From Syntrophus aciditrophicus SB (GTDB taxonomy: Bacteria; Desulfobacterota; Syntrophia; Syntrophales; Syntrophaceae), in the NCBI RefSeq assembly GCF_000013405.1, contig NC_007759.1, positions 1,675,001-1,739,000 on the forward strand: a stretch of DNA of 64,000 bases, read 5' to 3'. The notes beneath the pieces are model-generated. The model saw nothing but the letters and a program-made list of their open reading frames with translations. It was not told the DNA's origin and did no database searches. The number at the start of each line of letters is the position of its first letter. The stretch's first letter is position 1. A program made the position numbers and the translations under genes. Below, piece after piece: positions 19,009 to 45,397 of this stretch.

Positions 19009-19069
19009 TGCCGCCCCTCCTGATCCGTGCTGTTCATAGACGAAACATTTATCTTGTTCCTGAGATGCC

Positions 19070-22000: not shown

Positions 22001-22147
22001 AATCGGTTCCTGAGCCACCAGCTTTTTGTTAACGCCCGGGTCGATCCGGTACACAATGCCCGAGGTATTCACCTGCCCGGCAAAGCAGTCAACCACAGCT
22101 TCCACCGCGTTGGTCTGATAGGGCTGGACTTTGAACTTCAGTTTCAT
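19070..22147 (-). CDS. Type III restriction enzyme Res subunit (helicase-nuclease)
   Basis: A 1025-residue Res subunit of a type III restriction system. It has an SF2 helicase core: METGTGKT (Walker A, about 105-112), [12 protein letters not shown] (motif II with the DEPQ form), [12 protein letters not shown] (motif III) and a motif [12 protein letters not shown]. Near the C-terminus [12 protein letters not shown] followed by FVAETKGS gives the PD-(D/E)xK nuclease triad. AAGGAGGG precedes the ATG by 6 bases, and the mod gene ends 12 bases upstream. In this class Res translocates or diffuses from unmethylated sites and cuts at a distance when two sites meet. Confidence 0.92.
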
Positions 22148-22159
22148 GCCAAACCCTCC

Positions 22160-24091
22160 TTATATCGACTTCACATCAGTGCCCGGAGACATCTGCTTGA
22201 AGATCTGCTCCACGTTGATCTTGACGCCATCGGAGACAAAGCCGGTGTCGCGGAACACAACCCGCAGCGGTTCGAACCGGGCCAGCTCTTTGACCAGGTC
22301 CTCATTCACACCGGTATCGAAGCAGGCGACAAGGTCGTAGGGCGGCTGATTGACAAAGAAGACGGTTTTGCCCTGAATGGTCTCTTTTCGGATGGGCAGC
22401 GAAAGATCCACGCCCCAGTCCAGCAATACCTGGAAGAGCAGGTCTTCGGGCTTGCGGTCCGACTTAATGTTGTCGGTAAAGATTTTCAGCTGGCCTTGCT
22501 CAATGGCGTCCGGCGTGTAGTAGACGTCGGCCATGTTGGACGAATCGATCTTGAGGACGCGGAAGCCGATATCCTTGTTCCAATCTTCATGACACTCGCC
22601 TTCCAGAGTCTTCCTGCCAGCCCGGCGGATACGCTCCTTGCTGATCTCGGCGATGGTTTTGTAGCCTGCCTTAAACGCCTCGGACTTTTCGTCGCAAGGT
22701 TCAGGGAGCTGAACCATGATGAATTTGCGGTTCCCGCCGTCTTCGGCGTTGAGCTGTATGACAGCGTGGGCGGTCGTGGCGCTACCGGAGAAGAAGTCAA
22801 GGATTAGGGAGTGTTCATCCGAGCCTATCGTTGTTATCAGCTTGATTAGTGCAACCGGCTTCGGAAAATCAAAAATTCCCTTACCCAGCAAGACCTGCAA
22901 CTCCCTGGTTCCCTTATTTGAAATGATCTCCTTATCAGACAATACTGTTTTCGCCATCTGAGACAGCTTTCGCTCTTTCTGGAAAATACGGATCTCTCCA
23001 TCATTTCCCTCGTAAGCCACTAAACTATCTTTTTCCTTCTCAGACTTCTCTTTGCTCCAGCGCCAAACACTTTTCAATCCATCAACCGTGCTTGCCTCCA
23101 CTTTGACGAACCGATCCAAAGGGATGGTGGACACTTTGAAAAACCCATTGGCATCTGGGTTTTGCTTGTCCACGAAAAAAGGATATCTCAAATTAGGCCT
23201 GTTTGTTGAATTAAAGGCCTGCACGTTTCGATTCCGTAAGCCTTTAAGCGTAAAACCGCCTTGATCGTCGCTGTGAGGATGCTCAAGACCTTCGACGAGT
23301 ATTTCATTCATGCTGGCATATTCGTGATTTTTGCAATACACCAAGATGTAGTCATGCGTTTTGGCAAAAAATCCGTATCTCCGACCTTCTGGCTTGACGA
23401 TAATAGTAAGTTGAGCGACGAAGTTAGCACCACCAAAGATTTCGTCGCAAGCCCGCTGAAGGTTGGTGACTTCGTTATCATCGATTGAAATAAAAATCAC
23501 CCCATCATCTCGCAACAAATTCCTCGCAAGTTTCAATCGCGGATATATCATAGATAGCCAATCAGAATGGAATCGCCCATTGGCCTCTGTGTTCGCAATC
23601 AGCCGATTGCCCTCCTCATCTTTCTGATTCGATCTTTTAAGAAACTCATCTGAGTTCTCGGAAAAATCGTCTTCATAGATAAAATCGTTGCCCGTATTGT
23701 ACGGTGGATCGACGTAGATCATCTTGACCTTGCCAAGGTAGGTCTCTTGGAGCAGCTTCAAGGCTTCTAGGTTATCACCCTCGATAAACAGGTTCTTCGT
23801 GGTGTCAAAATCCACACTCTCCTCCCTGCAAGGGCGCAGGGTCTTGGCAATGGGGGCATTGGCGGTCAACAGGGCTTCCCGCTTGCCCGGCCAGTTGAGG
23901 TGATAGCGCTCCTGCGGACCTTCCACAATGGATTCCGACAACTCCTGCCGCAGCAGATCGAAATCTACGGCCAGCTTCAGCTTGCCATCTTGGCCTTGAG
24001 CCTCAGTCACGCAGCCGGGAAACATCTCGAGGATACGTGCGATGTTTTCCTGGGTCAGGTTCGGGGAGTGCATTTTCATCTTTTCCATCAT
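22160..24091 (-). CDS. Type III DNA adenine methyltransferase Mod subunit
   Basis: A 643-residue adenine-N6 methyltransferase with beta-class motif order: DPPYNTGNDFIYEDDF (motif IV, DPPY at 128-131) comes before LDFFSGSATTAHAV (motif I, AdoMet loop, about residue 430). A long middle insertion between them is the probable target-recognition domain. Mod makes the modification and gives Res its DNA-sequence specificity. AAAGGA precedes the start, and the gene follows DUF4391 by 9 bases. The recognition sequence cannot be read from this protein. Confidence 0.93.
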   Translation of the reverse strand: MMEKMKMHSPNLTQENIARILEMFPGCVTEAQGQDGKLKLAVDFDLLRQELSESIVEGPQERYHLNWPGKREALLTANAPIAKTLRPCREESVDFDTTKNLFIEGDNLEALKLLQETYLGKVKMIYVDPPYNTGNDFIYEDDFSENSDEFLKRSNQKDEEGNRLIANTEANGRFHSDWLSMIYPRLKLARNLLRDDGVIFISIDDNEVTNLQRACDEIFGGANFVAQLTIIVKPEGRRYGFFAKTHDYILVYCKNHEYASMNEILVEGLEHPHSDDQGGFTLKGLRNRNVQAFNSTNRPNLRYPFFVDKQNPDANGFFKVSTIPLDRFVKVEASTVDGLKSVWRWSKEKSEKEKDSLVAYEGNDGEIRIFQKERKLSQMAKTVLSDKEIISNKGTRELQVLLGKGIFDFPKPVALIKLITTIGSDEHSLILDFFSGSATTAHAVIQLNAEDGGNRKFIMVQLPEPCDEKSEAFKAGYKTIAEISKERIRRAGRKTLEGECHEDWNKDIGFRVLKIDSSNMADVYYTPDAIEQGQLKIFTDNIKSDRKPEDLLFQVLLDWGVDLSLPIRKETIQGKTVFFVNQPPYDLVACFDTGVNEDLVKELARFEPLRVVFRDTGFVSDGVKINVEQIFKQMSPGTDVKSI

Positions 24092-24100
24092 GTTCGTCCT

Positions 24101-24799
24101 TTAGGGTGTGACTGCCGTCCCGCTTGCAGGCAGCGGGCGGGTCAGATTTTCAAGTTCTTGTTTCAGGTCACGCAGCTCAGCGTTGATCGCGACCTTGTGG
24201 TTGAATTGTTTCTCTTTCCGGAGCCGGGCCTCACAGCGTTCCAGCTCCCGGTGCTTGAGCCGAATGCGCTCCATCCGTTCCACCCGCTTTTGCAGGTCTT
24301 CGCCCGGCCGTGCCGGGTACGGCATCAGGGGCAGCAGCAAATGGTCGTAGAGCGTTTCGAGGTCGAAAACCATCGGCAGGGGCTTGCGTGGCGTATCGGC
24401 GGCTGTCCAGCCGCTATCGAAATACTCGCTGATGACCCACTTGCTGGCATCCGCTTCACTCGGCCGCTTAAAGGCAGCAATGGGTAGTACTTTCCCGTCG
24501 AACCGGAGCTCAAAAATGATCGGAAAGGGAATGGCCAGGTCAATGCAGCGCAGCACCTCGGGTTTGAGTTCGTCACCCTTGAGAGCGATGCTGAAGATCT
24601 GAATTTCAGGCACGGCCTTTGATGCCTTCAGGTTGACTGTCTCCGGGGCAAGCTTGTGTTGCCAGACGATCTGTTCCACCTGCCGGACAAACAGCTGTCT
24701 GACTGCAGCGCTGGGGCTTCCGTGCTCGTAGATTTTGTTCTTGGGCAGCACGCGTCCAAAGGCGGCGTTCTTGGGATAGTCGAAGAGCACGGCTGTCAT
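24101..24799 (-). CDS. DUF4391 protein of the restriction operon
   Basis: A 232-residue DUF4391 protein. Typical features are the N-terminal FDYPKNAAFGRVLPKNKIYE and the IPFPIIFELRF strand, followed by a C-terminal coiled coil (residues about 180-225, LRKEKQFNHKVAINAELRDL). DUF4391 genes recur next to SNF2 helicases and type III mod/res genes; their biochemical role is not known to me. Its ATG overlaps the helicase stop by four bases and mod follows 9 bases later, so it is a core operon member, perhaps an adaptor. Confidence 0.85.
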   Translation of the reverse strand: MTAVLFDYPKNAAFGRVLPKNKIYEHGSPSAAVRQLFVRQVEQIVWQHKLAPETVNLKASKAVPEIQIFSIALKGDELKPEVLRCIDLAIPFPIIFELRFDGKVLPIAAFKRPSEADASKWVISEYFDSGWTAADTPRKPLPMVFDLETLYDHLLLPLMPYPARPGEDLQKRVERMERIRLKHRELERCEARLRKEKQFNHKVAINAELRDLKQELENLTRPLPASGTAVTP

Positions 24800-27700
24800 C
24801 CTTCCTCCTGCACCACGAGAAAGGCGACGAGCTCAAAGTCATCGAGCCCGGCAATGGTGTTCACCAGGGCGGTGGTCCTGCCGCCGGAGAACAAGCTGTC
24901 CAGATCCTTTTCCTCCTTGACGTCGATCATCGAACGAATGGCGGTTCTCAGCAGGTCGGAACAAGCCTTCATGTTCCGGCCTTCATCCGTTAGCTGATTG
25001 AAGAGGCGGCAGACCGCCTGAATGGGTTCCGGTTGCCCCTTGCAGCTGGATCGCACCAGGTCGAGCAGCGTTTTGACCTCGGTGTGGTTGGCGATGACCT
25101 GGCCGTCGCCAGAGATGTAGATCAGGTAGTAGGGATGCAGCCTGTTCTGCTGATTGATGTTGACCGCATGGTTGCGGTTGCGCAGCGCAAAGATGACCCC
25201 AGGGTGCAATCCCATTGCGGGCCGGGCTGGGACAACCGCGTGCATGCCATTGGGCACGTTGGCAAGGTCGCCATTGGTTTTGACATAGTTCAGCAGATCC
25301 ATCCGGAAGTCGTTCAGGCCGAGATCGGTGATGGAAACACCTGTTTTAAGGTCTTCCAGTTCGATCACCTCTTCCTGCAAGCGCCGGAGTTGCTCCTTTC
25401 GATACGAAATCTCGCTGCTTTTTGCCGTGAGGACGTTGTCGTCGCCAGTGGCCGTTACGTCGGCAATGACCATCCGGTTTTCAACCCGTTCCTTGAGATT
25501 GATGTATTCATCCAGAGAAATGTCGGGCCAATAATTCACCAGCTGGATGGTCTTGTTGATGGAGCCGATGCGGTCGATCCGGCCGAATCGCTGAATGATG
25601 CGAACCGGATTCCAGTGGATGTCATAGTTGACCAGGTAATCGCAGTCCTGAAGGTTCTGCCCCTCGGAGATACAGTCGGTGCCAATCAGCAGGTCCAATT
25701 CAGCTGGTTCATTTGGCAACACCTGAGCCTTCTCCTTGGCGCGGGGAGAAAAAAGCGTCAACAGCGACTGAAAATCATAATTTTTTCTGAGGGTTGATTT
25801 CGGCGTATCCTTGCCGGTTACTTTTCCGGTGTGCAGCCTCTGCGTTGCCAGTAGGGTATCCGCCAGGTTGTTGTAGAGGTAATTCGCCGTATCGGCAAAG
25901 GCAGTGAAAACAAGGACTTTTCTATTGCCGTCATTGATAGGGTTTTCAATCTTGCTGAAAATCAGGGCCTTGAGGTGTTGCAGCTTGGCGTCCTCCTCGG
26001 GTGTGACTTTTGCCATGGACTCCAGCAAGGCGTTAATGACTTCCAGATCAACCTTCAGGTCGTGTTCCCACGAAGGAAGATCCATGTCCGCAAGGTTTAT
26101 CTTCACCTTCCCGCCAATTTCGGCGTTGTCCAGGACCGGGATATCGTCCTCTTCAGCTTCGAGGTTTGCCAGGCTATCGGTCCAGTCAGAGACACTGCCA
26201 GCATCCCCTGCAACCCTGAATGAATCGATTTTGCTCAGGGTGCGGGTGTGGTTGTCGTGCAGGCTTTTCAAGGTAAGCCGAAAAGCCTCAACCGAGCTTT
26301 CCAGACGTTTGAGCAGATTGGTCGTCATCAATGCCTGCAGGCTTCGCTCGCGGTCCGCCTGCCTCAGCTTCCCTTTGCCACCTTCCACCTGCGTGTCGTA
26401 CAGGTCTTCATATTTTTTGAGCCGACTGGGCAGGATGTAGCTGATCGGGGCGTAGACGGCGAGCTTGAGCAGCGAGAGCTGTTCAAAGATCTCGTTAAAA
26501 CTCATGACATCCGTGCGGCCGGTCAGTGGCGAATGGAATGACAGCGGTTTGCGGCGCTCGGGAAACTGGCCTATGTCACTGGTATCGTAGAAGGTCTGGA
26601 TGTGCTTGCGCGAACGGGCAATGGTGACGCTGTCAAGCAGTTCAAAGAAGTCAAAATCAAGGGAATCCAGAATAGCCCGTGCCGTGCGATCCTCGGGTGC
26701 CAGTTTTGACCACTGGTTGAAGACCGTCTGGGCATTGCGGAAGATTTCTTCCACCGATCTGCCAGTACGCAGCTTCTTGCTGAGATTTTCAGAGTCGCCT
26801 TCGTAAGCCAGCGCGAGTTGGTTGCGCAGATCATTGAAGCGGTTATTGACCGGGGTGGCGGACAGCATCAGAACCTTGGTTTTAACGCCCTGGCGGACGA
26901 CCTGGTTCATCAGTTTCTGATAGCGGGTTTCCCTGTCTTTAACGGCATCGTTGTTTCGGAAATTATGCGATTCATCGATGACGACCAGATCATAATTGCC
27001 CCAGTTAACGCGGTTCAGAGGAATGCCGAACGACTCTCCCGAGGTGCGGGACAGGTCGGTGTGACACAGAACGTCATAATTGAAGCGATCCCTGGAGAAG
27101 ATGTTGGTCGTCAGGTTGCTGTTGTAATTCAGCCAGTTGTCCGCAAGTTTCTTGGGGCACAGAACAAGCACCGAACGGTTGCGCAGTTCGTAATATTTCA
27201 CAACAGCCAGAGCCGTGAATGTTTTACCAAGCCCCACGCTGTCGGCCAGGATGCAGCCGTTGTAGGTTTCCAGCTTGTTGATAATGCCTATGGCGGCATC
27301 ACGCTGAAAGTTGAAAAGCTTGTTCCAGACCAGCGTATCCAGATAACCCGTGCGGTCATTGGGCAACACATCTTCATCGATATCATCAAGGAAATCGCTG
27401 AAAATATTGTAGAGCATCAGGAAATAGATGCGCTCGGGTGAATTTTCCTGATAGACCGACGAGATATGATCACAGATCGCGGTAGTCACATCTTCAAGTT
27501 TTGTTGGATCATTCCAGATCTGGTCAAAGAGCTGAAGGTATGTCGACGTAAAGGCCGTCTCGTCTACCCGGTTGACGATGTTGGAAACGGCATCACCCTG
27601 CTGATATCCCAGATCCACGGCGGTAAAACCATGCAAAGGCATATATGCCGCTTCCAGCGAAGGCCCCTGAATGCAGGCAAACTGCTGCATCGGAGATCTG

Positions 27701-28068
27701 GTTTTATTAGAGCGGAATCTGGCTTTGCGGCACATCCATTCAGCACACTCGCGGGCAATGGCACGCTGGGTGAGTTTATTGCGAAGCTGGATTTCAAATT
27801 CGGAGCCGTAGAGGCTACGTTCCCGATTAGCCTTGGGGATAAAAAACTCTCGGCGTTCTTTTCTGAGCTTGTCGGTGACTTCGTTAGGAACGAAGGTCGG
27901 TGCCGTGAAGATGAATTCCAACGACTCAATCTTTGCGAGCTCGGACTTTAAAGCTTCATAGGCATAGATCGAAAAGCACGATGCCGCGATTTTCATTTTA
28001 GCCTTGGTTTGGATGGAAGCCTTCAGATCGTCGCCCAGCAAAGAATTGATGTTGTCGATGATCTTCAT
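24796..28068 (-). CDS. SNF2-type helicase with PLD-like N-terminal domain
   Basis: A 1090-residue SF2/SNF2 helicase. The first about 250 residues look like a phospholipase D-like nuclease or binding domain as seen in HepA-type defence helicases, though I do not see a clean HxK motif. The ATPase has ILADSVGLGKT (Walker A, 275-282), IDESHNFRN (motif II), LSATPVNNR (motif III) and a late DCISEGQNLQDCDYLVNYD / QRFGRIDRIGS (motifs V-VI). It is encoded directly after the HTH gene with a four-base overlap. It probably works with Mod-Res as a DNA translocase or remodeller. Confidence 0.9.
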   Translation of the reverse strand: MKIIDNINSLLGDDLKASIQTKAKMKIAASCFSIYAYEALKSELAKIESLEFIFTAPTFVPNEVTDKLRKERREFFIPKANRERSLYGSEFEIQLRNKLTQRAIARECAEWMCRKARFRSNKTRSPMQQFACIQGPSLEAAYMPLHGFTAVDLGYQQGDAVSNIVNRVDETAFTSTYLQLFDQIWNDPTKLEDVTTAICDHISSVYQENSPERIYFLMLYNIFSDFLDDIDEDVLPNDRTGYLDTLVWNKLFNFQRDAAIGIINKLETYNGCILADSVGLGKTFTALAVVKYYELRNRSVLVLCPKKLADNWLNYNSNLTTNIFSRDRFNYDVLCHTDLSRTSGESFGIPLNRVNWGNYDLVVIDESHNFRNNDAVKDRETRYQKLMNQVVRQGVKTKVLMLSATPVNNRFNDLRNQLALAYEGDSENLSKKLRTGRSVEEIFRNAQTVFNQWSKLAPEDRTARAILDSLDFDFFELLDSVTIARSRKHIQTFYDTSDIGQFPERRKPLSFHSPLTGRTDVMSFNEIFEQLSLLKLAVYAPISYILPSRLKKYEDLYDTQVEGGKGKLRQADRERSLQALMTTNLLKRLESSVEAFRLTLKSLHDNHTRTLSKIDSFRVAGDAGSVSDWTDSLANLEAEEDDIPVLDNAEIGGKVKINLADMDLPSWEHDLKVDLEVINALLESMAKVTPEEDAKLQHLKALIFSKIENPINDGNRKVLVFTAFADTANYLYNNLADTLLATQRLHTGKVTGKDTPKSTLRKNYDFQSLLTLFSPRAKEKAQVLPNEPAELDLLIGTDCISEGQNLQDCDYLVNYDIHWNPVRIIQRFGRIDRIGSINKTIQLVNYWPDISLDEYINLKERVENRMVIADVTATGDDNVLTAKSSEISYRKEQLRRLQEEVIELEDLKTGVSITDLGLNDFRMDLLNYVKTNGDLANVPNGMHAVVPARPAMGLHPGVIFALRNRNHAVNINQQNRLHPYYLIYISGDGQVIANHTEVKTLLDLVRSSCKGQPEPIQAVCRLFNQLTDEGRNMKACSDLLRTAIRSMIDVKEEKDLDSLFSGGRTTALVNTIAGLDDFELVAFLVVQEEG

Positions 28069-29805: not shown

Positions 29806-29871
29806 GGAGGAAAATATAGATTGGCTGGCACATACCCCGTCTCGCAATGGAAACGGGGTTTTCTATTTTAA
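29806..29871 (+). promoter_or_regulatory. Leader ORF overlapping an intrinsic terminator (attenuator-like)
   Basis: GGAGG at 29806-29810 precedes a TTG at 29821 that opens a 16-codon frame ending in TAA at 29869-29871. Across the same bases CCCCGT (29835-29840) pairs with ACGGGG (29853-29858), followed by TTTTCTATTTTA, a good intrinsic terminator. It sits 27 bases before the first ATG of the operon. A leader peptide over a terminator suggests transcription attenuation; alternatively it just ends an upstream transcript. Confidence 0.5.
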
Positions 29872-29897
29872 TTCAAGTGGCAGCAATGGGGTGTAAA

Positions 29898-30722
29898 ATG
29901 GCTGATTTGAGGATCGGTTTTCTGGATGTCGGGCACGGTGATTTCATCTATGCGACAACCCCACTTGGTGCCAACCTGATCATCGATGTCGGCACTGGCG
30001 ATGTCGTACCTTCGATTTTTCTCAGTGAAATATCTGCCATTTCTGAGTTACAAGTTTCCCATCCACATACGGATCACTTCGACGACATCATCGCAATATC
30101 AAAGAAAAACATCGCATCCTTCAGATGCCCCTCTCTGGACGGCTTTACTGACGATAGGATTGGTTGGACGAAACGCGACAAAGCTAAGATAGCCAAGCTA
30201 CGCCAAATGAGGAGGGAAATTGCTGCCGACAATGAAGCTGTTACCGTCGGTCAAGAGTTCGATCATACCGTGTGGTTTCCACCAAATGTTGACATTAACG
30301 ACCCTAACACGGCTAGTGCTTTAACAACACTTGCTTTTAAGGGTGTCAAAATCCTATTAGGAGGTGATCTCCCAGCTTCCGGATGGAAGGATCTGCTGAA
30401 TAATTCCAAATTTGTCGGAGCCATTACGGGAACGACAATTTTCAAAGTTCCACATCATGGGCGGTCGGAAGGATGCTGTAATGAACTTTTCGATGTTATA
30501 ACACCAATGCTGTGCGTAATATCCGATAAGTCGATAGAAAAAGACAATAAGAATACTGCGGCGACCAAATGGTATTCAGATAGGACCACCGGCTGTATTG
30601 TCGCAGGGTGCAAAGATAAACGGAAGGTTGTTTCTACTCGTTCTGATGGTTCGATCTTTATAAAGATCAACGATAAAGGGGAATGGTGGGTCCATCCGGG
30701 AACTCGTTGGTTAAGGGATTAA
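29898..30722 (+). CDS. Metallo-beta-lactamase-fold protein 1 of the E2-E1-JAB operon
   Basis: A 274-residue MBL-fold hydrolase of the ComEC-like branch. It starts MADLRIGFLDVGHGDFIYA, has the zinc motif HPHTDH (55-60), a later LLGGDLP aspartate and VPHHGR histidine, the usual third metal ligands. No membrane segments, so cytoplasmic. Start is uncertain: the frame is open further up to ATGs at 29847 and 29886, but 29847 lies inside the terminator hairpin, so I prefer 29898. It is followed after 16 bases by a second MBL gene. Substrate may be a nucleotide, nucleic acid or a protein conjugate; unknown. Confidence 0.82.
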   Translation: MADLRIGFLDVGHGDFIYATTPLGANLIIDVGTGDVVPSIFLSEISAISELQVSHPHTDHFDDIIAISKKNIASFRCPSLDGFTDDRIGWTKRDKAKIAKLRQMRREIAADNEAVTVGQEFDHTVWFPPNVDINDPNTASALTTLAFKGVKILLGGDLPASGWKDLLNNSKFVGAITGTTIFKVPHHGRSEGCCNELFDVITPMLCVISDKSIEKDNKNTAATKWYSDRTTGCIVAGCKDKRKVVSTRSDGSIFIKINDKGEWWVHPGTRWLRD

Positions 30723-30738: not shown

Positions 30739-31902
30739 ATGAAAGGATTTCCAAAGCGGGGTTTTATATTCTGGCCGGTCGGTACCGGTGATAGTACGAC
30801 CATTGTTGTAGACAAAGAGGACGGGATCATATTACAAATCGACCTGCGCCATATGGAATGCGCTACAGAGGAAGACGATCCTCATGTTCCGATCATTGAT
30901 ATCCTCAAACAAGAGCTTCCGGAGCTGAACGAGAAACCCCACCTGTCAGTGTTCGCGTTGACACATCCCGATAAGGATCACTGCCAGGGGTTTTCGCAAT
31001 TGATAAAAGAAGTCACAATCGGGGAACTCTGGTTTTCGCCACGAATATTCCGAGAATATCACAAGGACCTTTGCGAAGACGCCTCGGCCTTCAAGAAAGA
31101 AGCTATGAGGCGTGTCAAGAAAACGATCACTAGCAAAGGGAATGTTGGTTCCGGAGATCGCGTCCACATCATCGGCTATGATGATCTCCTGAAAGAAGAG
31201 GAATTCGAAGGATTCCCTCAAGACCAGCTGACCGTTCCGGGAAACTCCATCACTGAACTAAATGGGGAGGATTATTCAGATTGCTTCAATGCTTTCGTCC
31301 ATGCGCCATTTAAGGACGACAGCGAAGGCGAGCGAAATGACACAAGTCTTGCTTTTCGGATAGCCCTGTCTGATGGAGAAGTTACCGGCTTTGCCATGCT
31401 TCTTGGCGATCACTGCTACCCCACAGTAAAGCGCATTTTCGACCGAACCACTGATAAAAATAATTTGGCTTGGAACGTATTTCTTGCCCCACACCACTGT
31501 TCCAAGGGAGTCATGTACTGGTGCGATGAGGGCGAGAAGGAAGAAACCCTTCGGCAGGGCGTTCTTGACGCGATTGAGAAGGCAGCCAGTGACCCAGGCT
31601 ATATCGTCGCCAGTTCAGAACCAATCCCAAAATCAAACGAAGCCGGCGATAATCCGCCACATGCAATAGCGAAAAACCGGTACGAGGAAATAGCGCCAGA
31701 CGGGTTTGTGTGCACACAGGAACATGGAGGCAAGGATCACCCTCAACCAATCATTTTTGAAGTGACCACCGCAGGCCTTACATACTGGGGGTCTCAAGTC
31801 GCAAAAGCAGCGGGACTGACCTCCCTGGCGAAAGCTATCGAGCAGGCACGCGGAGGCGCGGCACCACCTTCAGATAGAGTTGGATTCGGGGAAAATCGAT
31901 GA
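30739..31902 (+). CDS. Metallo-beta-lactamase-fold protein 2 of the E2-E1-JAB operon
   Basis: A 387-residue MBL-fold protein. The metal motif is THPDKDH (75-81, an HxDxDH variant), with LLGDHCYP near residue 222 and APHHCSKG near residue 253. The N-terminal FWPVGTGDSTTIVVD resembles the VGxGD-ssl pattern of ComEC-like MBLs. AAAGGAGGGG precedes the ATG, and the stop overlaps the next ATG by four bases. It differs enough from MBL protein 1 (longer, with an inserted helical region at about 100-160) that the two are likely non-redundant, perhaps forming a heterodimer. Substrate unknown. Confidence 0.85.
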   Translation: MKGFPKRGFIFWPVGTGDSTTIVVDKEDGIILQIDLRHMECATEEDDPHVPIIDILKQELPELNEKPHLSVFALTHPDKDHCQGFSQLIKEVTIGELWFSPRIFREYHKDLCEDASAFKKEAMRRVKKTITSKGNVGSGDRVHIIGYDDLLKEEEFEGFPQDQLTVPGNSITELNGEDYSDCFNAFVHAPFKDDSEGERNDTSLAFRIALSDGEVTGFAMLLGDHCYPTVKRIFDRTTDKNNLAWNVFLAPHHCSKGVMYWCDEGEKEETLRQGVLDAIEKAASDPGYIVASSEPIPKSNEAGDNPPHAIAKNRYEEIAPDGFVCTQEHGGKDHPQPIIFEVTTAGLTYWGSQVAKAAGLTSLAKAIEQARGGAAPPSDRVGFGENR

Positions 31903-34900
31903 CAGCGGGGCAGGAACTCGCACAAGAAGAACTGCGCGAGATCGAGGCTGCGTCAGAGGGTGCGTTCGAAGTCCTTTCTGTGAGGTTTCCAGAAGGGGAT
32001 CACCGGTCAGCAATCGCAGAAATAAGCGTCACCTGTTTCGATATGCCGTACGCAGAGGGAGGGATAAAGCTCAGAGATAGAGAGCGCTTCCTCATATACA
32101 TTCCACCGGATTTCCCTTTCGATGTTCCAAGCGTTTATACGCCGCATCGACGTTTCTCAGGGAATCCCCACGTCCAATGGCAAACCTACCTATGTCTTTA
32201 CCAATCAAGAAACACCGAGTGGGATGCCAGTGACGGTATGTTTGGATTCATTTCTCGTCTCGAATTGTGGCTTCGTCGCGCTGCCCTCAACCAACTGGAT
32301 ATGGAAGGCGCACCGCTTCACCCTCCGGTCGCATACCCCACCGAAAGAATTACGGTGATTCCACGGAAGGATACCCCACAAGTTCAAGGGACGGCATGGT
32401 TTGGATATGCAAAACTTAGGAATGTCTCAAGTTATCGAATCGACATAGAAGACTGGATTGACATTTCGGAATCTGTAACCCAAGCAGCGGTAGGAGCCGC
32501 GATACTTCTTACGGAACCCCTGTCGTGGGAATATCCTGCTAAAGCGAAAATGCTTCTCGATCAGGTAGAGAAGAATGGCGTGTCCCGGGCCATTATCCGG
32601 CTCGTCATGGCACTCGCCGCCGATGCCAACCCTGCGGATAGCGACCTCTTGGTTATTATCGGAGCACCGATGCGGGGAATCCGAGGATCACATCAACTCA
32701 AGCAGCATCTGACCGCATGGCTAATAAAGAAAGAGATGGTCAATGGACTCCGTCTCATTCCAAACAAATACAGCACAGAAGAAGGATTCCGGGTGATCGG
32801 CCTTGAAGTGGAAAAGCTCATGGGAAAATGGCTCGACCTTGTCGATGTCGCCTGGTGCACGGTACGGGAGGACCGGCCCGAAATCATTCTTCCCAGAGAT
32901 ACCGGAACACCGATGAACGTCTTCAGGGAACGGACCGTTGCCGTATGGGGATGCGGTGCCATCGGTGCCCCGATCGCGGAAACCTTGGCGCGGGCAGGCG
33001 TAAAGAAACTTGTCTTGAGGGACAAAGGGATTATCGCTCCTGGAATATTGAGCCGACAGCCGTATCTTGATGAGGAAATAGGCTATTCCAAAGTGGGTGT
33101 TCTAGCAAAACGGCTAAGGCAGATTCGACCAGACATTCTTGTCATTGAACCAAAATTTGAGGATGTAAAGTCAACTGTCTTGGACTCTGAGGATTGGACC
33201 GACGGTGCCGACTACGTGATTGATACCACAGCATCACTGGCGGTGATTGAAAAACTGGAGAGCCGAAGGGGGAAGAGTACCCGGCGGGTGCCAGTTGCAT
33301 CCATGGTCGTGGGGCATCGAGCCCAACAAGGACTCGTTGTCGTCTCGGGTTCGAGACATAGTGGTGGACCTGTTGATGTCCTTCGGAATGTAAAGATAGC
33401 AGCATGCTCAAAGGGCTGTTTGGGGGACTATGTGGATGAGTTCTGGCCGGCGGAACCGAGAAACGACGTATTCCAACCGGAACCTGGATGTTCGGAGGCA
33501 ACCTTCGTTGGTTCGGCCGCCGACTCAATCGCTTTGGCTGCGATAATGCTCAATTTAGCAGCAGTTGACTTTCACGAGATAGAAAAGGAAGCCGATACAG
33601 AGGATTCTGCGACTGCACACTTTGTTGCTCAGCCGCATACGGCACTTCCCGGTATACCCCTGTACTACAAGTTCAATTTCCAATCGGACATTGTAATCGA
33701 AGATCCGCAAAGCAACTTTCAGATCAGGATATCGCAAGCAGCTCTTTCGGAAATGCATACATGGGTAAGGCGGAGCGCACTAATCTATGGAGAAAAAGCT
33801 GAAACAGGGGGCATCCTTTTCGGCGGAAGAGACAATGCGTGCCGGGTCATATGGGTGTCAGAAGTAATCGGGCCGCCGGCTGACAGTGAATCATCTTGCG
33901 CACACTTCATATGCGGCACCAATGGAGTGGCAGAGGCTAATGAAGAGAAGCGGCAACGAACCCGTGGTTCCACTCAATATATCGGAATGTGGCATACACA
34001 TCCCACATCACTGCCTGCTCCAAGTGAGACTGATTTCCTGGCAATGCATGCGCTAGTGAATGCAGATGAGCCATCGACACATAAGCACCTCCTGCTCATA
34101 CTGGGGTCCGATTCAGAGCAGTCCGTGGAGCTACTTTCAGGCTTTTTATTCTCGAAGAAGGATTTCGGTGATTTGGAAAAATTCGGAGTCCTTGAGAGGA
34201 AAATTCAGGTATCTGCTCTTGGACCTCTGACGCCACAAGATATAATTGTGGATCAAGCAGGTAGACGCTTCATGGTGCTGAGTGACATGCATTTCGGGAC
34301 ACCGGAGAGTTCAATCAATGTTGCTCAGTTTCGCGACCCCCTTATCGATTATATGGTGTCCCGTGCGCCTTGGGATGAGATTGTATTTACCGGCGACTTA
34401 ATTGACATCAACCTGTCCACTTTTACCCGCGCTATTGAAGGGGGTGCTTGGCAAGATTTGAACGGGCCACTGTTCGGATTCCGGCAATTCGTTCAAGAAC
34501 TCGATATACGGATGAGACGGCAATCACCAGAAAAGGGTCTAAAACATCTCACACAAAAATGGATTTACGTGCCAGGTAACCACGACTATAAAATATGGGA
34601 CATGCTCTCATCGAAACTGGTGTGTGATGACGTTCTAGCCTCCGGGAAAAAAATGGGCTCTGTACCCACGCCTGTCATGACGGGCAAGTGGATAGGAGAG
34701 GAATCCTTTTTCGCAGGAATCTTCCGAACCTACTGTGCACAGAACCAAGTCATCGTTGAATACCCGAACCACGAAATCAATTTCCGTCAAGAAAAGATGG
34801 TGCTGACTCACGGGCATTATTTGGATTCAAAACAAACCCGCTTCAATGACCTCTCTGACTATCTTTCCAACTTCAAGTCTCCCGAAGAGATCAGAAAGGC

Positions 34901-35375
34901 CCGCCGCCGGATTTTTATCGAAACAGCGCAATATCAAACTGTGGCCAATACTATCTCTTTTACAATGGGTTTTCGGGGCTTAGCGAATGTTTTGGTAGGC
35001 CCAGATGCATTTGGAAATAAGATCAAGAAACTATATCATCAGGTTGGCAGTTCACTGCTTATCCTCCTTTTCCCTCGTGAAGCAAGGAAAGGCAAGCGTC
35101 TATCCTCGAAGCAACTCCGGAACATGGGATGCTACCTTGAACAGTTCTGTCAGTATAAAAAACTGCCACGATGGTTCATTTTTGGGCATACCCACCATCA
35201 AGGAAAGGAGAAGAGTAATCTAGGTGTGGATGTGTACAACGCAGGTTCATGTTACAGCGACCGGGATATTCCCATCACTTTTCTTGAGATTGAAACCAAT
35301 GCCCAAGGCATGCCGATAATCCAATTAATGTGTATAGACCGAAACGGAAATGTAAAGAGGACAGATTATTCATAA
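31899..35375 (+). CDS. E2-E1-JAB-metallophosphatase fusion protein
   Basis: A 1158-residue protein with four recognisable catalytic modules. (1) E2/UBC-like, about 1-135: FPFDVPSVYTPHRRF then NPHVQWQTYLCLY with candidate catalytic Cys99. (2) An unassigned 140-330 region. (3) E1/ThiF-like, about 335-560: WGCGAIGAP nucleotide loop (351-356), a SRQPYLD segment (385-391) and candidate catalytic Cys531 in PGCSEATFVGSAAD. (4) JAB/JAMM, about 610-770: Glu635, then H699-T-H701 with Ser709 and Asp712, exact HxH-x7-S-xx-D spacing. (5) Calcineurin-like phosphatase, about 790-1130: D796-x-H798, GD 832-833, GNHD 893-896, HGH 971-973 and GHTH 1096-1099. It is last in a three-gene operon. Confidence 0.9.
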   Translation: MTAGQELAQEELREIEAASEGAFEVLSVRFPEGDHRSAIAEISVTCFDMPYAEGGIKLRDRERFLIYIPPDFPFDVPSVYTPHRRFSGNPHVQWQTYLCLYQSRNTEWDASDGMFGFISRLELWLRRAALNQLDMEGAPLHPPVAYPTERITVIPRKDTPQVQGTAWFGYAKLRNVSSYRIDIEDWIDISESVTQAAVGAAILLTEPLSWEYPAKAKMLLDQVEKNGVSRAIIRLVMALAADANPADSDLLVIIGAPMRGIRGSHQLKQHLTAWLIKKEMVNGLRLIPNKYSTEEGFRVIGLEVEKLMGKWLDLVDVAWCTVREDRPEIILPRDTGTPMNVFRERTVAVWGCGAIGAPIAETLARAGVKKLVLRDKGIIAPGILSRQPYLDEEIGYSKVGVLAKRLRQIRPDILVIEPKFEDVKSTVLDSEDWTDGADYVIDTTASLAVIEKLESRRGKSTRRVPVASMVVGHRAQQGLVVVSGSRHSGGPVDVLRNVKIAACSKGCLGDYVDEFWPAEPRNDVFQPEPGCSEATFVGSAADSIALAAIMLNLAAVDFHEIEKEADTEDSATAHFVAQPHTALPGIPLYYKFNFQSDIVIEDPQSNFQIRISQAALSEMHTWVRRSALIYGEKAETGGILFGGRDNACRVIWVSEVIGPPADSESSCAHFICGTNGVAEANEEKRQRTRGSTQYIGMWHTHPTSLPAPSETDFLAMHALVNADEPSTHKHLLLILGSDSEQSVELLSGFLFSKKDFGDLEKFGVLERKIQVSALGPLTPQDIIVDQAGRRFMVLSDMHFGTPESSINVAQFRDPLIDYMVSRAPWDEIVFTGDLIDINLSTFTRAIEGGAWQDLNGPLFGFRQFVQELDIRMRRQSPEKGLKHLTQKWIYVPGNHDYKIWDMLSSKLVCDDVLASGKKMGSVPTPVMTGKWIGEESFFAGIFRTYCAQNQVIVEYPNHEINFRQEKMVLTHGHYLDSKQTRFNDLSDYLSNFKSPEEIRKARRRIFIETAQYQTVANTISFTMGFRGLANVLVGPDAFGNKIKKLYHQVGSSLLILLFPREARKGKRLSSKQLRNMGCYLEQFCQYKKLPRWFIFGHTHHQGKEKSNLGVDVYNAGSCYSDRDIPITFLEIETNAQGMPIIQLMCIDRNGNVKRTDYS

Positions 35376-35939: not shown

Positions 35940-36200
35940 TTAGAAATCACCCAGGACATCTTTCAGCTTGTCCGGGACGCCTCGACGGAGCGGCGCATCA
36001 TCTCTTTTTCCCGGCACCGCGCCCGGCGCTTCCTTCGAGAGCATCTCATAAACTTCCCTGCCGCCGACCGTGTCGAAATAAACCTTGAGGGCTCTCTGTA
36101 TGACCCGCCCGCGGTCCGGCTGGAAAATCGAGCGGATCTTCCGAATCAATTCATCGTCCGTCAGGGTGATCCTCAGGGTTATTTCACGCTTCGTGGTCAT
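35940..36200 (-). CDS. ParR-like partner of the ParM-like actin
   Basis: An 86-residue basic protein with a predicted ribbon-helix-helix-like N-terminus (MTTKREITLRITLTDDELIRK...RGRVIQRALKVYF) and a short C-terminal tail. Gene position immediately after a ParM-like actin with ATGA overlap is the standard parM-parR order, where ParR binds the centromere and caps the filament. The longer open frame upstream lies inside the actin gene, so I start at the ATG at 36200. Function by context. Confidence 0.68.
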   Translation of the reverse strand: MTTKREITLRITLTDDELIRKIRSIFQPDRGRVIQRALKVYFDTVGGREVYEMLSKEAPGAVPGKRDDAPLRRGVPDKLKDVLGDF

Positions 36201-37159
36201 TTCCCTGATTCCACGTCCAGCGCCTTCAGAAAACCCCTCGCGTTGGCATACTCGGGGTGATCGGGCACGTGAACGAGCGGCAGGTACTCCTCCGGGATGT
36301 GCTCCTGGAGATAGTAGGCGCCTCCCCCGGCGATGATAACCTTCTCCGCGCGCTGTATCCTCGCCATCCATTTCGAGTGCACTTCCTGGATCAGCCAGTC
36401 CATGTATTTCTCCGCCGATTCTCTGACCAACTCAGCGAGATCCCGCTCCGCCCCGTACACCCGGATCCTGCCTTGGCGAAGTACATCCTTCGATTCCTGT
36501 TCGGAAAGATCAAGTTGCATCCGGACCTTGATTTCCCTGGCGAGGTCCAGGGAGATCTTCGACACCCCATGCCTCTCCAGAGTGTCGGATTCGCCCTTGA
36601 CGATCCTCCCTCGCTCGACCACGATAACGTCCACGGTGTTGAATCCGATATCGAGAATGATCATGTCACGGTCCGTCCGCGCGTTGACGTCTCCCGCCTG
36701 GGACAGCCGGTAGTCCGCGAGAACCCCGAGACCCTGGGGATAGAACCGCGCGTTCAATTCCAATACCTCGCGGCCCACCTCGATCCGTTGCAGGAGGGGA
36801 ACGAGTTCCTTCAGGTTCGCTTCCGTGTAATGGGAAAGGGGGAGTCCCATGGCGACGTCCGTGACGAGTTCACCGGTCCTCCGATGGATTTTCTTCACCG
36901 CCTTGAAGACGAAAAGGGGCGAATACCTCTTCATGAACTCGAAGCTCCGCGTCGAAAAGGCGCCAACCAGGGCTTCCCTGCCGACGAAGTATTTCCTGCC
37001 CCGGTATTCATATTCCTCGCCCCCTGCAAAGGCCGACAGATCTCCGACTTCCCGCTCCGCGTAAGCGATCGCCGTCGGGAACTTGAGCATCTCCAGAATT
37101 CCCTCACGCTGATAAACGGCTTTCACGTCCCCGTACCCGACATCCAGTCCCAGATTCAT
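36197..37159 (-). CDS. ParM/Alp-type plasmid actin
   Basis: A 320-residue actin-fold protein of the plasmid segregation class. It has the phosphate-1 loop LGLDVGYGDVKAV at the N-terminus, the phosphate-2 loop IILDIGFNTVDVIVV near residue 165 and the adenosine loop VIIAGGGAYYL near residue 280. Such proteins polymerise with ATP and push plasmid copies apart. AAGGAGG sits 7 bases before the ATG at 37159. It pairs with the downstream ParR-like gene; a palindromic cluster upstream (37721-37912) could be its centromere. Confidence 0.87.
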   Translation of the reverse strand: MNLGLDVGYGDVKAVYQREGILEMLKFPTAIAYAEREVGDLSAFAGGEEYEYRGRKYFVGREALVGAFSTRSFEFMKRYSPLFVFKAVKKIHRRTGELVTDVAMGLPLSHYTEANLKELVPLLQRIEVGREVLELNARFYPQGLGVLADYRLSQAGDVNARTDRDMIILDIGFNTVDVIVVERGRIVKGESDTLERHGVSKISLDLAREIKVRMQLDLSEQESKDVLRQGRIRVYGAERDLAELVRESAEKYMDWLIQEVHSKWMARIQRAEKVIIAGGGAYYLQEHIPEEYLPLVHVPDHPEYANARGFLKALDVESGK

Positions 37160-37218
37160 TTGCACACCTCCTTGATGTTCTTCTTAAGTTTTTGCCGACA
37201 GTTCCGTCGTTTCATCAC

Positions 37219-41320: not shown

Positions 41321-43096
41321 TTATTCGGAGCCTTGAATAATGTTGTTTCCCTGCAGGAACCGATTCATATCGGTGAACATGCTGAAGAAAACAGGCTTTC
41401 CTGAAAAGGCCAGCGGCGATATTGGCCCCACTGCCATAAATGGAAACTCCTGAAGGTTTCGGGCTGGGAAACTTTGTGGATCACGGAATGATTGGTATAA
41501 CTCTAACGAACGCTTGTCTCCCCCCACGAAATCTCTTAGGCGGTCAAACTCTGTGCCCATAGCAAGCCCAAACCCGAAAGCCAGTATTCGAAGTTGTTGC
41601 AGAATCTCTGGGTCAAGACCTCCGAGCGTTTGACTGATGAAGAACCATCCCAAACCGTATTTCCGAGTCTCCCTTACTGCACGGCGCAGTAACACACGGA
41701 GCCGCTCGGCCTCTGTGTCCTGTTCTAATCGACCGCTGGGGGCATGCCTGTGCGCCTCATCGAGAAAAACCAGAACATTTGCACTTTGCCTCGTCGATAA
41801 GCTGGATGTCGATTGAGCGATCATAACATTCAGCAACTTACTTAATAGACGACGCTCCAGTTCTTCCGTCCAGAAACGATTTTGATTGCCTCGCGCGGAC
41901 AGGTCAATAACAACAATCGGACGTGGCCCCGTTTCATTTGCAGTTCCCATTAAGTCGGATACGATTCCATACAACCTCCGCCTTCCTGGTCCTGCAGCAA
42001 AAAGACTACAGAGCGGAATCCACTTGCTATTTAGAACTTCATCAAATCGATTTGAAAGAATATCCTGCACTCGGTTTTGCAAGCGCACACGCGGGTCTTT
42101 GCTTGGGAAAATGTATGGCAGGCTTTGTTGGTCTAAAACGGCATTCAGTGCTGTAGAAAGCGCATCGCGAGTCCCGAGGTTGGCAAGTTGAAATTGTTGT
42201 CTCCCTCCCTGCGTCGCACGTTCCAGGGCATTTCGAACCACTTCCGCTGCACGCACCGCATTGTTGTTGTGCGTAATGGTCAGCTCTTCACAGAAACCGA
42301 GAGACACCAGCATTTCTTCGAAGGTGTTCCATTCATCTAATTGAATATCAGCGATTCTGTAAATGTTAATTGATCGCCCTTGCTGCCGCACAATCTGGTC
42401 CAGAGCCAATCCTTGATTGCCAACACGTGTGCCTGAAAGTTCCAGCGTGAATTCACCTTGAGGATCAATGACAAGGATACCAAGATTAGTGTGCCGGGAG
42501 TAAGCACAGAGCATCATCTTTGCTAAACCCGATTTGCCAGACCCTGTCTTACCGAAGACTCCGATATGATAAGCCTCGCCAGCACCACCGGGACCTTGAT
42601 CATTGCTTCCGAAGTGCTTGAACCACATGGGATAAAGGATCTCGTTGGCATAGGCTTGGCCAAGGTAAAATATCTCGGAACTATATGCTTGTAATAGCTG
42701 ATCGAGTAATCCTTGATCGATTCTTGAGACTCTAGTCCCTGTTGCTGGGACCATTCCCAATACTTCTGGCTGAAACCCGTTCCCTGTTCTCTTGAACGTG
42801 GCACCTACAACAAGGTCCGCCGTTCGCGTGTCCTGTCGATTTGTTATAGGCGGAATCTCTCCCGTTCGTTTCACGAGATTCCTGAAAACGGAATCTTCAT
42901 GCCATCGATTTTTCAACTCGATGCCTACTATCTGCCCTACAGACACGATTGCTTGACCATTCTGTGTTGCTTGAAAAGCAGATAGCGCTCCAACTAAACG
43001 CTCTTCAGTGGCCTCCTGAAGAAGGTCTAATGTTAATTCCGTATTGGTTGATGGGCTTCCTACGACTGCGACATCCTGATTTCGATTATTTGTCAT
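41321..43096 (-). CDS. HerA-type ATPase of a NurA-HerA pair
   Basis: A 591-residue DUF87/HerA ATPase. Walker A GVFGKTGSGKS (182-189 in this numbering), Walker B NVLVFLDEAHRHAPS, then VRETRKYGLGWFFISQTL, the sensor and arginine-finger region. The ATG at 43096 overlaps the NurA stop by one base (TGATG) and has GAGGAGG upstream. HerA hexamers thread DNA to NurA nuclease in archaea, and bacterial NurA-HerA pairs occur in defence loci. This is the second HerA in the window and differs from the SIR2-linked one. It is the last gene of the operon starting at 58849. Confidence 0.88.
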   Translation of the reverse strand: MTNNRNQDVAVVGSPSTNTELTLDLLQEATEERLVGALSAFQATQNGQAIVSVGQIVGIELKNRWHEDSVFRNLVKRTGEIPPITNRQDTRTADLVVGATFKRTGNGFQPEVLGMVPATGTRVSRIDQGLLDQLLQAYSSEIFYLGQAYANEILYPMWFKHFGSNDQGPGGAGEAYHIGVFGKTGSGKSGLAKMMLCAYSRHTNLGILVIDPQGEFTLELSGTRVGNQGLALDQIVRQQGRSINIYRIADIQLDEWNTFEEMLVSLGFCEELTITHNNNAVRAAEVVRNALERATQGGRQQFQLANLGTRDALSTALNAVLDQQSLPYIFPSKDPRVRLQNRVQDILSNRFDEVLNSKWIPLCSLFAAGPGRRRLYGIVSDLMGTANETGPRPIVVIDLSARGNQNRFWTEELERRLLSKLLNVMIAQSTSSLSTRQSANVLVFLDEAHRHAPSGRLEQDTEAERLRVLLRRAVRETRKYGLGWFFISQTLGGLDPEILQQLRILAFGFGLAMGTEFDRLRDFVGGDKRSLELYQSFRDPQSFPARNLQEFPFMAVGPISPLAFSGKPVFFSMFTDMNRFLQGNNIIQGSE

Positions 43097-44223
43097 CAAA
43101 CACCTCCTCGGCCACCTTCCGTTCTATAATTCTGTAAGAATAGAAGCGTATTTTCAATGTCAGGGGACGATCCCGCTACGTGCTGTGCAACGGTCTGTTC
43201 GATTACCGCCACACCGGATCCGAGACTCTTGACCATTCGATCGGCCAGAAATAAGGGATACGGCTCAATTACAGCCGGGCTGAAAAACTGACGACTTATA
43301 CCTTCCAGAACAATTGATAGTCGTGTGTTACTCGACGTTATTGCGGATGGCAGTTCCATTCTCAGTGCGGGAAGCCAACCGTAAGGACGAAAATAGATGA
43401 CCGATAACCGATTCAATGCCTCCCTAATTTCATCCATATCTTTTGTGGGACAGTATTTCTCCGGTAGGTGGTCAACCTGCTGGCTCGCAGGATCGGTCGC
43501 ATCATGCAGGGGTAATGGACGAGTATATTCACCCGGATCCAAAATCATCGTGGCCAGCGTTTTACCGTCGACCATTACGGGGGGATTCAGCATGTTTTCA
43601 CGAAGAAATTCGTTGCGAGATGTAAACTTAGGCATGGCAACTGTTCTTTCGCTCGTTAATAAACCCTTCAGCTGATCCAGCGCGCCGCCTTTCCAGCGGT
43701 CCAAAAAAAATTCGGATAAGGTCTTTGAGGAATCAGCAATCCTCGTAAGCGCTTGATTTAAATAGATGACCAGGGATGAAAATGATCCGTCAAGAAGAAC
43801 GAGATCATGGGGAGCTTTGGCCGCGAGCGCCATCTCCATTGAGACCATTGTGCCCCGCAAGACTCCGACTGCATCAATACAATGTGGTAATCCATCGACC
43901 CACATATCATGATAGGGCTCCGGCCAGTATCTGGCAGCCTCTTTGGATGTACCCTCTACCGCAACAGCTGCGGCTGCACATAAGTCCAATGCTGTCAAAC
44001 GATGCACCTGATATGATCCATCCACTCCGACGACTGATGGTTCCCTGGGCACATCGAGGTCAGCTTTTCGGCAGATCAGGCGATGATTTCTCGCTTCTGT
44101 ATAGAGGCGGGCGCGAGCATCACGGAGTGCCTGCAGATTCTGTGACACCCCTTCCGCAACAGGTGCGGCTTTGGCAAGGAGATCTCGAACCAGTGCATCA
44201 GGAAGATCCGCGAATGCCTCCAT
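43096..44223 (-). CDS. NurA-domain nuclease
   Basis: A 375-residue NurA nuclease. The RNase H-like active-site motifs are visible: VVGVDGSYQV with Asp68 and HDLVLLDGSF with Asp145; a later VAVIEQTVAQHV helix resembles the third acidic region. NurA degrades DNA ends with HerA. ATG at 44223 is preceded by AAAGGAGG with 11-base spacing; the four-base gap to the upstream DruA-like gene and one-base overlap with herA argue for one complex. The frame runs further up to 44325 only by overlapping the neighbour. Confidence 0.82.
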   Translation of the reverse strand: MEAFADLPDALVRDLLAKAAPVAEGVSQNLQALRDARARLYTEARNHRLICRKADLDVPREPSVVGVDGSYQVHRLTALDLCAAAAVAVEGTSKEAARYWPEPYHDMWVDGLPHCIDAVGVLRGTMVSMEMALAAKAPHDLVLLDGSFSSLVIYLNQALTRIADSSKTLSEFFLDRWKGGALDQLKGLLTSERTVAMPKFTSRNEFLRENMLNPPVMVDGKTLATMILDPGEYTRPLPLHDATDPASQQVDHLPEKYCPTKDMDEIREALNRLSVIYFRPYGWLPALRMELPSAITSSNTRLSIVLEGISRQFFSPAVIEPYPLFLADRMVKSLGSGVAVIEQTVAQHVAGSSPDIENTLLFLQNYRTEGGRGGV

Positions 44224-44227
44224 ACAC

Positions 44228-45397
44228 TCAGTTTCCTCCTTTATTGATCTTTTTCTTTGAAGGCCAAAGTCGATACTGTTCCCGCGTGTATTCGCGGTAA
44301 TCTGGCTTCCGTTCTGCTCGACCAATGAGCCATCTATTCTTGAAAGCCTCCGATAATTCTGAAGCTGTCCAATTATAGAAACATGGCCGTTTAACTTCTC
44401 CCTTCAAGAACCGGATTGCATCACGCCCCAAAGGGGCAGCGAATATCTCTCGGCGGATACCGTGGTAAATAAGATCCGCTGAAAGACCGATCTGAGAGAG
44501 GCACTTGCGAATTACTTCACGCTTGTTTCGAAAACCGGTCCCCCAAGCTATGTGCTTTGCGGTAGGCTCGCAATACTTTTCAACATATGCCCTGATGTCG
44601 CCATAGACACCGTTGGAAAAGTGGAATTCTCCTGACCCTTGTGTGAATCCCAGGCTGGTCCAATATTGTTGACCATTGATGCGGATTCGATTGTATATGG
44701 AAGACCGTCCAAGAGCCGAAGTGGTTGTAACCAGTGTAAGGTAAGGCGGCCGAGTTTCCTGTCTGATTAAAGATTTCTTGCCGTTGTATTTTTCACGAAA
44801 TGCGTCTCGCACCTCGTTGCTGCAAACGAGCAGTGCTATAAGTTTTCCGCCCAGCAAGAATGAATATGGCGGCACAGCACCCAACACATAAGCATCCATT
44901 ATGTGATACAGGTGTTGTGCTTTGTTTTCCTTGTCCCATCCAATCCAATTATCGCGTGCTCGCATAGAGTAGACCGGGTCTCCCAAACCGAATAAACCCA
45001 TCAGCTTTCCATTGCTTTCATCGAACACAAGGAAGCGAAGTCTCCTCCCGTATCCTGCCGAGACCGGAATACTCCAGTGAAGACAAGCATAACGAAACAG
45101 CAGTTCGTTTTCGGATCCAGGTCTTACGACTACAAGCTTGGGTCGTATTTCATTGGTTATCACCTGATGCCCGTCAGCAATATATTGAATAAGCTGATCT
45201 TCATAAGATCGAACACCCGGACCGGATACTTCAAGTTTTTTATGCAGGGCAAGTTCGTTCAGCGCACGGAAATCATCTTTCGTGGGGTCCTTGGGCAAAT
45301 GGATAATTCCATCATGTACCCTATAACCCTGCTTACGCAGAGATCGGATAATGGCAGATCTTAAGAGCTCTGCCGATGGTACATTCATGAGTGGCAA
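44228..45397 (-). CDS. DUF4338 (DruA-like) protein
   Basis: A 389-residue DUF4338 protein, the family of Druantia DruA. The family core is seen as LVVVRPGSENELLFRYACL, GYGRRLRFLVFDE, LMGLFGLGDPVYSMRARD and WTSLGFTQGSGEFHF. The large DUF1998 helicase DruE that defines Druantia is not present, so this is DruA-like in a different setting: it is followed by NurA and HerA. The start is TTG at 45397 with AAGGGA upstream; an ATG nine bases later (45388) is the alternative. Its biochemical activity is not established as far as I know. Confidence 0.8.
   Translation of the reverse strand: MPLMNVPSAELLRSAIIRSLRKQGYRVHDGIIHLPKDPTKDDFRALNELALHKKLEVSGPGVRSYEDQLIQYIADGHQVITNEIRPKLVVVRPGSENELLFRYACLHWSIPVSAGYGRRLRFLVFDESNGKLMGLFGLGDPVYSMRARDNWIGWDKENKAQHLYHIMDAYVLGAVPPYSFLLGGKLIALLVCSNEVRDAFREKYNGKKSLIRQETRPPYLTLVTTTSALGRSSIYNRIRINGQQYWTSLGFTQGSGEFHFSNGVYGDIRAYVEKYCEPTAKHIAWGTGFRNKREVIRKCLSQIGLSADLIYHGIRREIFAAPLGRDAIRFLKGEVKRPCFYNWTASELSEAFKNRWLIGRAERKPDYREYTREQYRLWPSKKKINKGGN

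Follow-up and report, generated by a model that had tools for sequence, protein, structure and literature searches.

We base a reading of one operon of Syntrophus aciditrophicus SB on observed features: the domains present, conserved catalytic residues, membership of a named family, exchange of effectors at one and the same position, and a portable conserved tail. The operon lies within a stretch of 64,000 nucleotides, here called the window. We consider it reasonably probable that it is an anti-phage operon of the 6A-MBL type with a fused and exchanged effector, in which a metallo-beta-lactamase (MBL) protein is conjugated through Gly384 and a metallophosphoesterase (MPP) acts as the damaging component. 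The genes of the apparent operon and the modules of the fusion protein are the following.

29847 to 30722, + strand: MBL1, a ComEC-like metallo-beta-lactamase-fold protein, 291 aa (PADLOC PDC-M48B, E=2.8e-29)
30739 to 31902, + strand: 6A-MBL enzyme, a ComEC-like MBL protein, 387 aa (NCBIfam NF058524)
31849 to 31899, + strand: C-terminal tail of the 6A-MBL protein, residues 371-387, RGGAAPPSDRVGFGENR (comparison of 28 clusters and of 85 MBLs)
31899 to 35375, + strand: cap2_3-MPP fusion, E2-E1-JAB-metallophosphoesterase, 1158 aa (NCBIfam NF058523 and Pfam domains)
31899 to 32318, + strand: E2 (UBC-like) domain, residues 1-140 (Prok-E2_A, E=9.9e-19)
32319 to 32888, + strand: linker domain, residues 141-330, corresponding to the matching region of Cap2 (profile and Foldseek matches to 7to3)
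32889 to 33683, + strand: E1 adenylation domain, residues 331-595 (ThiF, E=7.7e-17; invariant residues)
33696 to 34163, + strand: JAB/JAMM isopeptidase domain, residues 600-755 (Prok-JAB, E=1.8e-12; PADLOC JAB)
34251 to 35372, + strand: metallophosphoesterase domain, residues 785-1158, in the effector slot (Metallophos match)

The fusion gene starts with ATG and its frame is unbroken (0 stops) over 1158 aa; the genome (3.18 Mb, one contig) holds a single full-length copy. A preliminary description of this DNA had placed E2, E1, JAB, and phosphatase modules in one protein, and Pfam supports that assignment for an intact chain: Prok-E2_A (67.8 bits against a cut-off of 25), ThiF (61.7 against 28.1), Prok-JAB (47.5 against 25), and Metallophos (28.0 against 21.5) follow one another along the chain, and every score exceeds the curated threshold. 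PADLOC profiles for E1-E2 (E=1.3e-80) and JAB (E=5.6e-25) match the same protein. The residues singled out in that description (Cys99, the GCGAIG loop at 351-356, Cys531, the JAMM set, and the MPP motifs) are all real and conserved in alignments. Across a 58-row alignment, invariant positions comprise the E2 catalytic Cys99 (32193-32195) with H91 alongside, the E1 residues G351, G353, G356, D375, R386, and K398, the E1 catalytic Cys531 (33489-33491), and E635, H699, H701, and S709 of the JAB/JAMM site, whose fifth residue, D712, is at least 90% conserved. A divergent 6A clade, whose local identity is only ∼23-37%, retains the E2, E1, and JAB catalytic residues as well. In the MPP domain, every motif of the calcineurin-like superfamily is present and invariant across five MPP homologues: DxH (D796, H798), GDxxD (G832-D833..D836), GNHD (G893-N894-H895-D896), HxH (H971, H973), and GHTH (G1096-H1097-T-H1099).

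Structural modeling agreed with the proposed nature of the N-terminal part. In an AlphaFold model built with 58 sequences, residues 1-770 mostly reached pLDDT values of 80-95, and the E2 domain was modeled with good confidence in a helix-strands-helix layout. Compared with the PDB by Foldseek, this model was closest to CBASS Cap2 in complex with the cyclase (7to3, aligned over 657 columns), with BubCD (9ea4) in second place, and a profile search, independent of fold, matched 7to3 over residues 118-504. Cap2 is the closest solved structure to the fusion core by both routes. The MPP segment was modeled with low confidence (pLDDT 34 from its single sequence alone, mostly <50 within the full-chain model), so its fold assignment rests on sequence; used as a query in PDB sequence searches, the MPP returned no match.

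Both genes of the core pair pass NCBIfam cut-offs for a named family. The fusion protein scores 363.3 bits against '6A-MBL_cap2_3' (NF058523; cut-off 320; residues 55-734), and the upstream 387-aa protein scores 307.2 bits against '6A-MBL_enzyme' (NF058524; cut-off 220). These profile matches assign the locus to the family that already bears the name 'anti-phage 6A-MBL system', and the putative anti-phage role is taken here from the NCBIfam name only. A wholly new system was considered and rejected, since both genes pass these cut-offs. Like the family, the locus has a specialized MBL protein followed directly by a protein with the E2, E1, and JAB modules in one chain; it differs in that an MPP is fused after JAB, whereas the family model stops after JAB. 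The kinship to E1/E2/JAB operons of the kind described by Aravind's group and to CBASS Cap2/Cap3, which the preliminary description had mentioned, was likewise borne out: row 6a of Iyer 2006 describes a triple-module E2-E1-JAB protein almost always found beside a metallo-beta-lactamase (PMC1779556), and Cap2 is the top fold match. The suggestion that the architecture had not been described before held in part. The fusion to an MPP is absent from the other relatives retrieved and the words 'phosphatase' and 'phosphoesterase' are absent from the main text of PMC1779556, but the family itself already carries the NCBIfam name 6A-MBL. Our literature search did not find the name '6A-MBL', nor any report of MBL conjugation.

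MBL1 is the first gene of the apparent operon. A 16-nucleotide gap containing an AGGAGG-type Shine-Dalgarno sequence separates it from the 6A-MBL gene, which in turn shares an ATGA-type overlap (31899-31902) with the fusion gene. The active-site residues of the 6A-MBL protein (H76, D78, D80, H81, D224, and H252, the first four forming the HxDxDH motif H76-x-D78-x-D80-H81) are invariant over 28 clusters. MBL1 is without the VGFG tail described below. The idea that it is a conserved component of the system could mostly be rejected; L040 was the only other 6A locus with a relative nearby, and L060 gave a weak match. MBL1 is also of the partner type PDC-M48B, and small membrane proteins adjoin 6A-MBL operons at L137:8906-9403 and L040:3098-3592, the former of the PADLOC candidate type PDC-M48A and the latter assigned to it by resemblance; a link between the PDC-M48 candidate and 6A-MBL is possible. 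Downstream of the operon, window positions 36197-37165 encode an actin-like protein (ALP_N, plasmid-partition type) that hints at a plasmid-derived or integrated element. The operon sits inside a dense defense island (window positions 8347-61597) with these other members:

8347 to 14957: Wadjet-like JetD, SMC-type, DUF4194, and DUF3375 genes
15533 to 19098: HerA and SIR2
19070 to 28068: type III restriction-modification with DUF4391 and an SNF2 helicase
41321 to 45397: HerA/NurA-like genes and DruA
45416 to 58637: Hma-like genes HmaC, HmaB, and HmaA

The place that the MPP occupies in the chain is filled by other proteins in relatives. Relatives were gathered with two short peptide patterns from one genome per species (84,980 species); the best 80 of 108 were kept, and one close relative from viral contigs and three plasmid copies were added. 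The resulting tree holds 82 relatives, not dereplicated, and locus counts throughout are not dereplicated unless clusters are stated. A patatin phospholipase accompanies 70 of these 82 (19 fused, 51 in the next gene), a small membrane protein 5, and a divergent patatin 1, with 6 having neither or being unclassified; an MPP in the effector position was found in 0 of the 82 (best 80 of 108 plus viral and plasmid additions). Every long C-terminal extension among the relatives kept (19/19) is a patatin-like phospholipase. These patatin-fused proteins (L037, L036, L083, and 16 others) mostly share 36-46% identity with the window protein over the E2-E1-JAB core and carry their effector at the same C-terminal position, but with a patatin-like phospholipase where the window protein has an MPP. 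The stretch preceding the MPP also resembles the one preceding the patatin of L037. In the tree, the window protein lies among patatin-fused and effector-less relatives, mainly of Acidobacteriota and Planctomycetota, with moderate branch support around it (SH-aLRT 86-95), a placement that fits effector replacement.

Within the window's own class, cap2_3 exceeds the family cut-off in 5 of 155 genomes, the window's own included. Two of these, G418 and G427, belong to the same order as the window genome and carry an MPP homologue directly after cap2_3 as a separate gene. Both operons read MBL-cap2_3-MPP with genes touching or overlapping, and the MPP, 38% identical to the window MPP domain, is the sole third gene. 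The coordinates of the three successive genes are as follows.

L126, separate-MPP operon: 4656-5798, 5795-8056, 8057-9172
L125, separate-MPP operon: 1607-2749, 2746-5121, 5122-6237

These operons share all three components with the window, but their MPP is a gene of its own and their cap2_3 and MBL fall in the divergent clade. In the remaining two cap2_3 genomes of the class (G511 and G406), the slot is taken by small membrane proteins. Across these relatives the place after JAB is thus an effector slot, filled by an MPP in both free (G418, G427) and fused (window) form. Because relatives hold a patatin or a membrane protein there and G418 and G427 hold the MPP as a third gene, the MPP, fused or separate, appears to behave as an interchangeable effector, a role assigned from position only. 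A calcineurin-like phosphoesterase has been listed among the cell-killing domains of CBASS in a review (PMC10419184). Further MPP homologues were sought in the window's own phylum sample and class and in phage, plasmid, and viral collections; no relatives were found in IMG/VR or in the plasmid and phage collections. Outside 6A operons, G150 has a homologue with a subtilase and an MBL, and in G378 one lies next to a divergent 6A operon, accompanied by an MBL and further genes. The MPP family is therefore not tied to 6A operons, as these copies stand beside other MBL or protease genes. At L119:634-4822, genes for a subtilase (Peptidase_S8) and for an MBL-like protein come after that of an MPP homologue, an arrangement resembling protease and MBL-nuclease defense pairs.

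Enzymes of the MPP superfamily often hydrolyze cyclic nucleotides or phosphoproteins, and here the domain is fused to JAB, the reversal enzyme. The MPP could on these grounds be a regulator or off-switch. It might be a phosphodiesterase that clears damaged ends or a nucleotide signal, or it might supply the phosphatase activity for a conjugate-deconjugate-dephosphorylate cycle, the single machine that the preliminary description proposed. We regard a regulatory MPP as fairly unlikely. The slot it fills belongs to a patatin in most relatives and to a membrane protein in others, no 6A locus examined (0) combines a patatin with this MPP, a pairing that might be expected of an off-switch, and in G418 and G427 the MPP stands as the only third gene; the slot and the separate third gene also count against the one-cycle proposal. 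Another explanation would be that an unrelated MPP gene was joined to a 6A gene by chance or in an inactive form. The E2-E1-JAB-MPP fusion is a single example within the best 80 of 108 relatives plus additions, a statement limited to that set because two peptide patterns supplied the relatives, of which the best 80 were retained. Chance joining is nevertheless very improbable, given the intact frame and complete catalytic motifs, the homologous MPPs as third genes in two divergent 6A operons, and the likeness of the pre-MPP stretch to the pre-patatin stretch of L037.

Neither the 6A-MBL family name nor the second conserved feature of this locus, a ubiquitin-like C-terminal tail on the MBL partner, figured in the preliminary description. 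The 6A-MBL protein ends in the pattern RG..PP..VGFG plus a few unconserved residues; in the window, three unconserved residues follow the candidate conjugation residue, Gly384 (31888-31890). When conservation was scored over 28 clusters at 60% identity, R371, G372, P377, V381, G382, F383, and G384 stood out, Gly384 being present in 28/28, and both the ∼20 residues before the block, a linker, and the last residues after Gly384 were unconserved. Among 85 MBLs, 75 end in G-[F/Y/H]-G plus 0-6 residues, the extension past Gly being 0 residues long in 7 tails, 1 in 18, 2 in 32, 3 in 13, 4 in 3, and 6 in 2. The divergent clade that includes the G418 and G427 operons has PAPRAG or PAHRAG plus two residues, not VGFG. 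At L039:4838-5992, a SMODS-type CD-NTase with the same tail, ending AIAAARGSAEPPRTRVGFGR, replaces the MBL directly upstream of a related cap2_3; this locus stands between 6A-MBL and CBASS as an intermediate form. At L101:3650-5995, the protein encoded directly upstream of cap2_3 (781 aa, weakly matching NB-ARC) closes with a variant tail that ends AIAAARGDDSAVPPESTFGGRGRAW (FGGRGRAW). That protein is a possible STAND sensor serving as modifier, and no effector gene was recognized beside cap2_3 at L101.

In CBASS, the C-terminal Gly of cGAS becomes bound to Cap2 as a thioester, and conservation of a C-terminal Gly/Ala is found only in operons with Cap2 and Cap3 (PMC10097602); Cap3 reverses the bond that Cap2 makes (PMC11153139). 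By analogy, since Cap2 conjugates cyclase C-termini and the tail is common to the CD-NTase of L039, the 6A-MBL protein is probably the conjugated modifier, joined through Gly384. Only 7 of the 75 tails end exactly at the Gly, unlike those of CBASS cyclases, so that tail processing must be assumed. The same extra residues would suit a docking peptide, and the MBL could then be an independent nuclease effector, with a host ThiS/MoaD-like protein or the effector as the E1-E2 target. The intact MBL active site is compatible with such a role, and MBL nucleases are among the effectors of other defense systems (PMC12799240). We nonetheless judge an independent nuclease with a docking tail to be unlikely, as the tail is an isolated conserved block past an unconserved linker with an invariant Gly near its end, it also occurs on a CD-NTase, a known class of Cap2 substrate, and Pfam, NCBIfam, and PADLOC recognized no ubiquitin-like protein in the window operon. 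The tail-coding sequence comes to within a few bases of the next start codon, and in the window a GGGG run in the region of the last Gly codon lies ∼8 nucleotides before the ATG. Conservation could conceivably reflect signals for translating the downstream gene (Shine-Dalgarno, overlapping start) rather than the protein. That reading is extremely improbable: codons vary freely between synonyms (last Gly, GGC 27, GGT 21, GGG 14, and GGA 13; Phe, TTC 51 and TTT 17; Tyr, TAT 6), and in nearly all loci the next homologous start lies at a variable spacing of -7 to +39. Synonymous variation together with variable spacing indicates that selection acts on the protein sequence of the tail.

Among known systems, the operon stands close to type II CBASS (PDB 7to3; PMC10097602, PMC11153139). 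Shared features are the E2-linker-E1 architecture with its catalytic residues, the JAMM isopeptidase, and, in 6A relatives, patatin and membrane effectors; the partner has a conserved Gly near its C-terminus. The two differ in that the partner here is an MBL protein instead of a CD-NTase, in that E2, E1, JAB, and effector are contained in one chain, and in that the 6A-MBL tail carries extra residues after the Gly (0-6 in the MBL set). Searches of the window operon with Pfam, NCBIfam, and PADLOC gave no nucleotidyltransferase match, and the neighbors of the fusion gene are two MBL proteins. The same sequence profiles matched no beta-grasp ubiquitin-like protein in the three operon genes. Bil/Bub systems are not known to contain an MBL or an MPP. 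They resemble the locus as a bacterial ubiquitin-like pathway, BubCD (9ea4) being the second fold match.

For the mechanism, we infer tail processing, conjugation, triggering, and the substrate and effector role of the MPP. JAB would probably trim the few residues past Gly384 of the upstream MBL protein. E1 would then adenylate Gly384 and take the MBL protein onto Cys531, from which it would pass to Cys99 of E2, and E2 would link it to a target; JAB could undo this link. These steps would parallel the action of Cap2 and Cap3 on the CBASS cyclase C-terminus. Infection may shift the conjugation state or the activity of the MBL protein, and the MPP, standing in for the phospholipase of its relatives, would supply the damaging step by hydrolyzing phosphodiesters or phosphomonoesters of an essential phosphate-containing molecule, perhaps nucleic acid or nucleotides.

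This reading offers a concrete answer to what 6A-MBL systems conjugate, namely, the MBL protein via Gly384, and would tie them mechanistically to CBASS, where the modifier is the cyclase. The comparison with relatives also shows the effector to be a replaceable module that can be fused to the core, and the window protein would add a metallophosphoesterase to the list. Tentatively, and with less confidence, we propose that the E2-E1-JAB core may be a general immune platform that recognizes a portable RG..PP..VGFG tail, placed during evolution on various sensors or enzymes (an MBL, a CD-NTase, or a STAND-like NTPase), and couples these to exchangeable patatin, membrane protein, or MPP effectors. 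If so, the version in the window would unite a new MPP effector with conjugation and its reversal in a single polypeptide.
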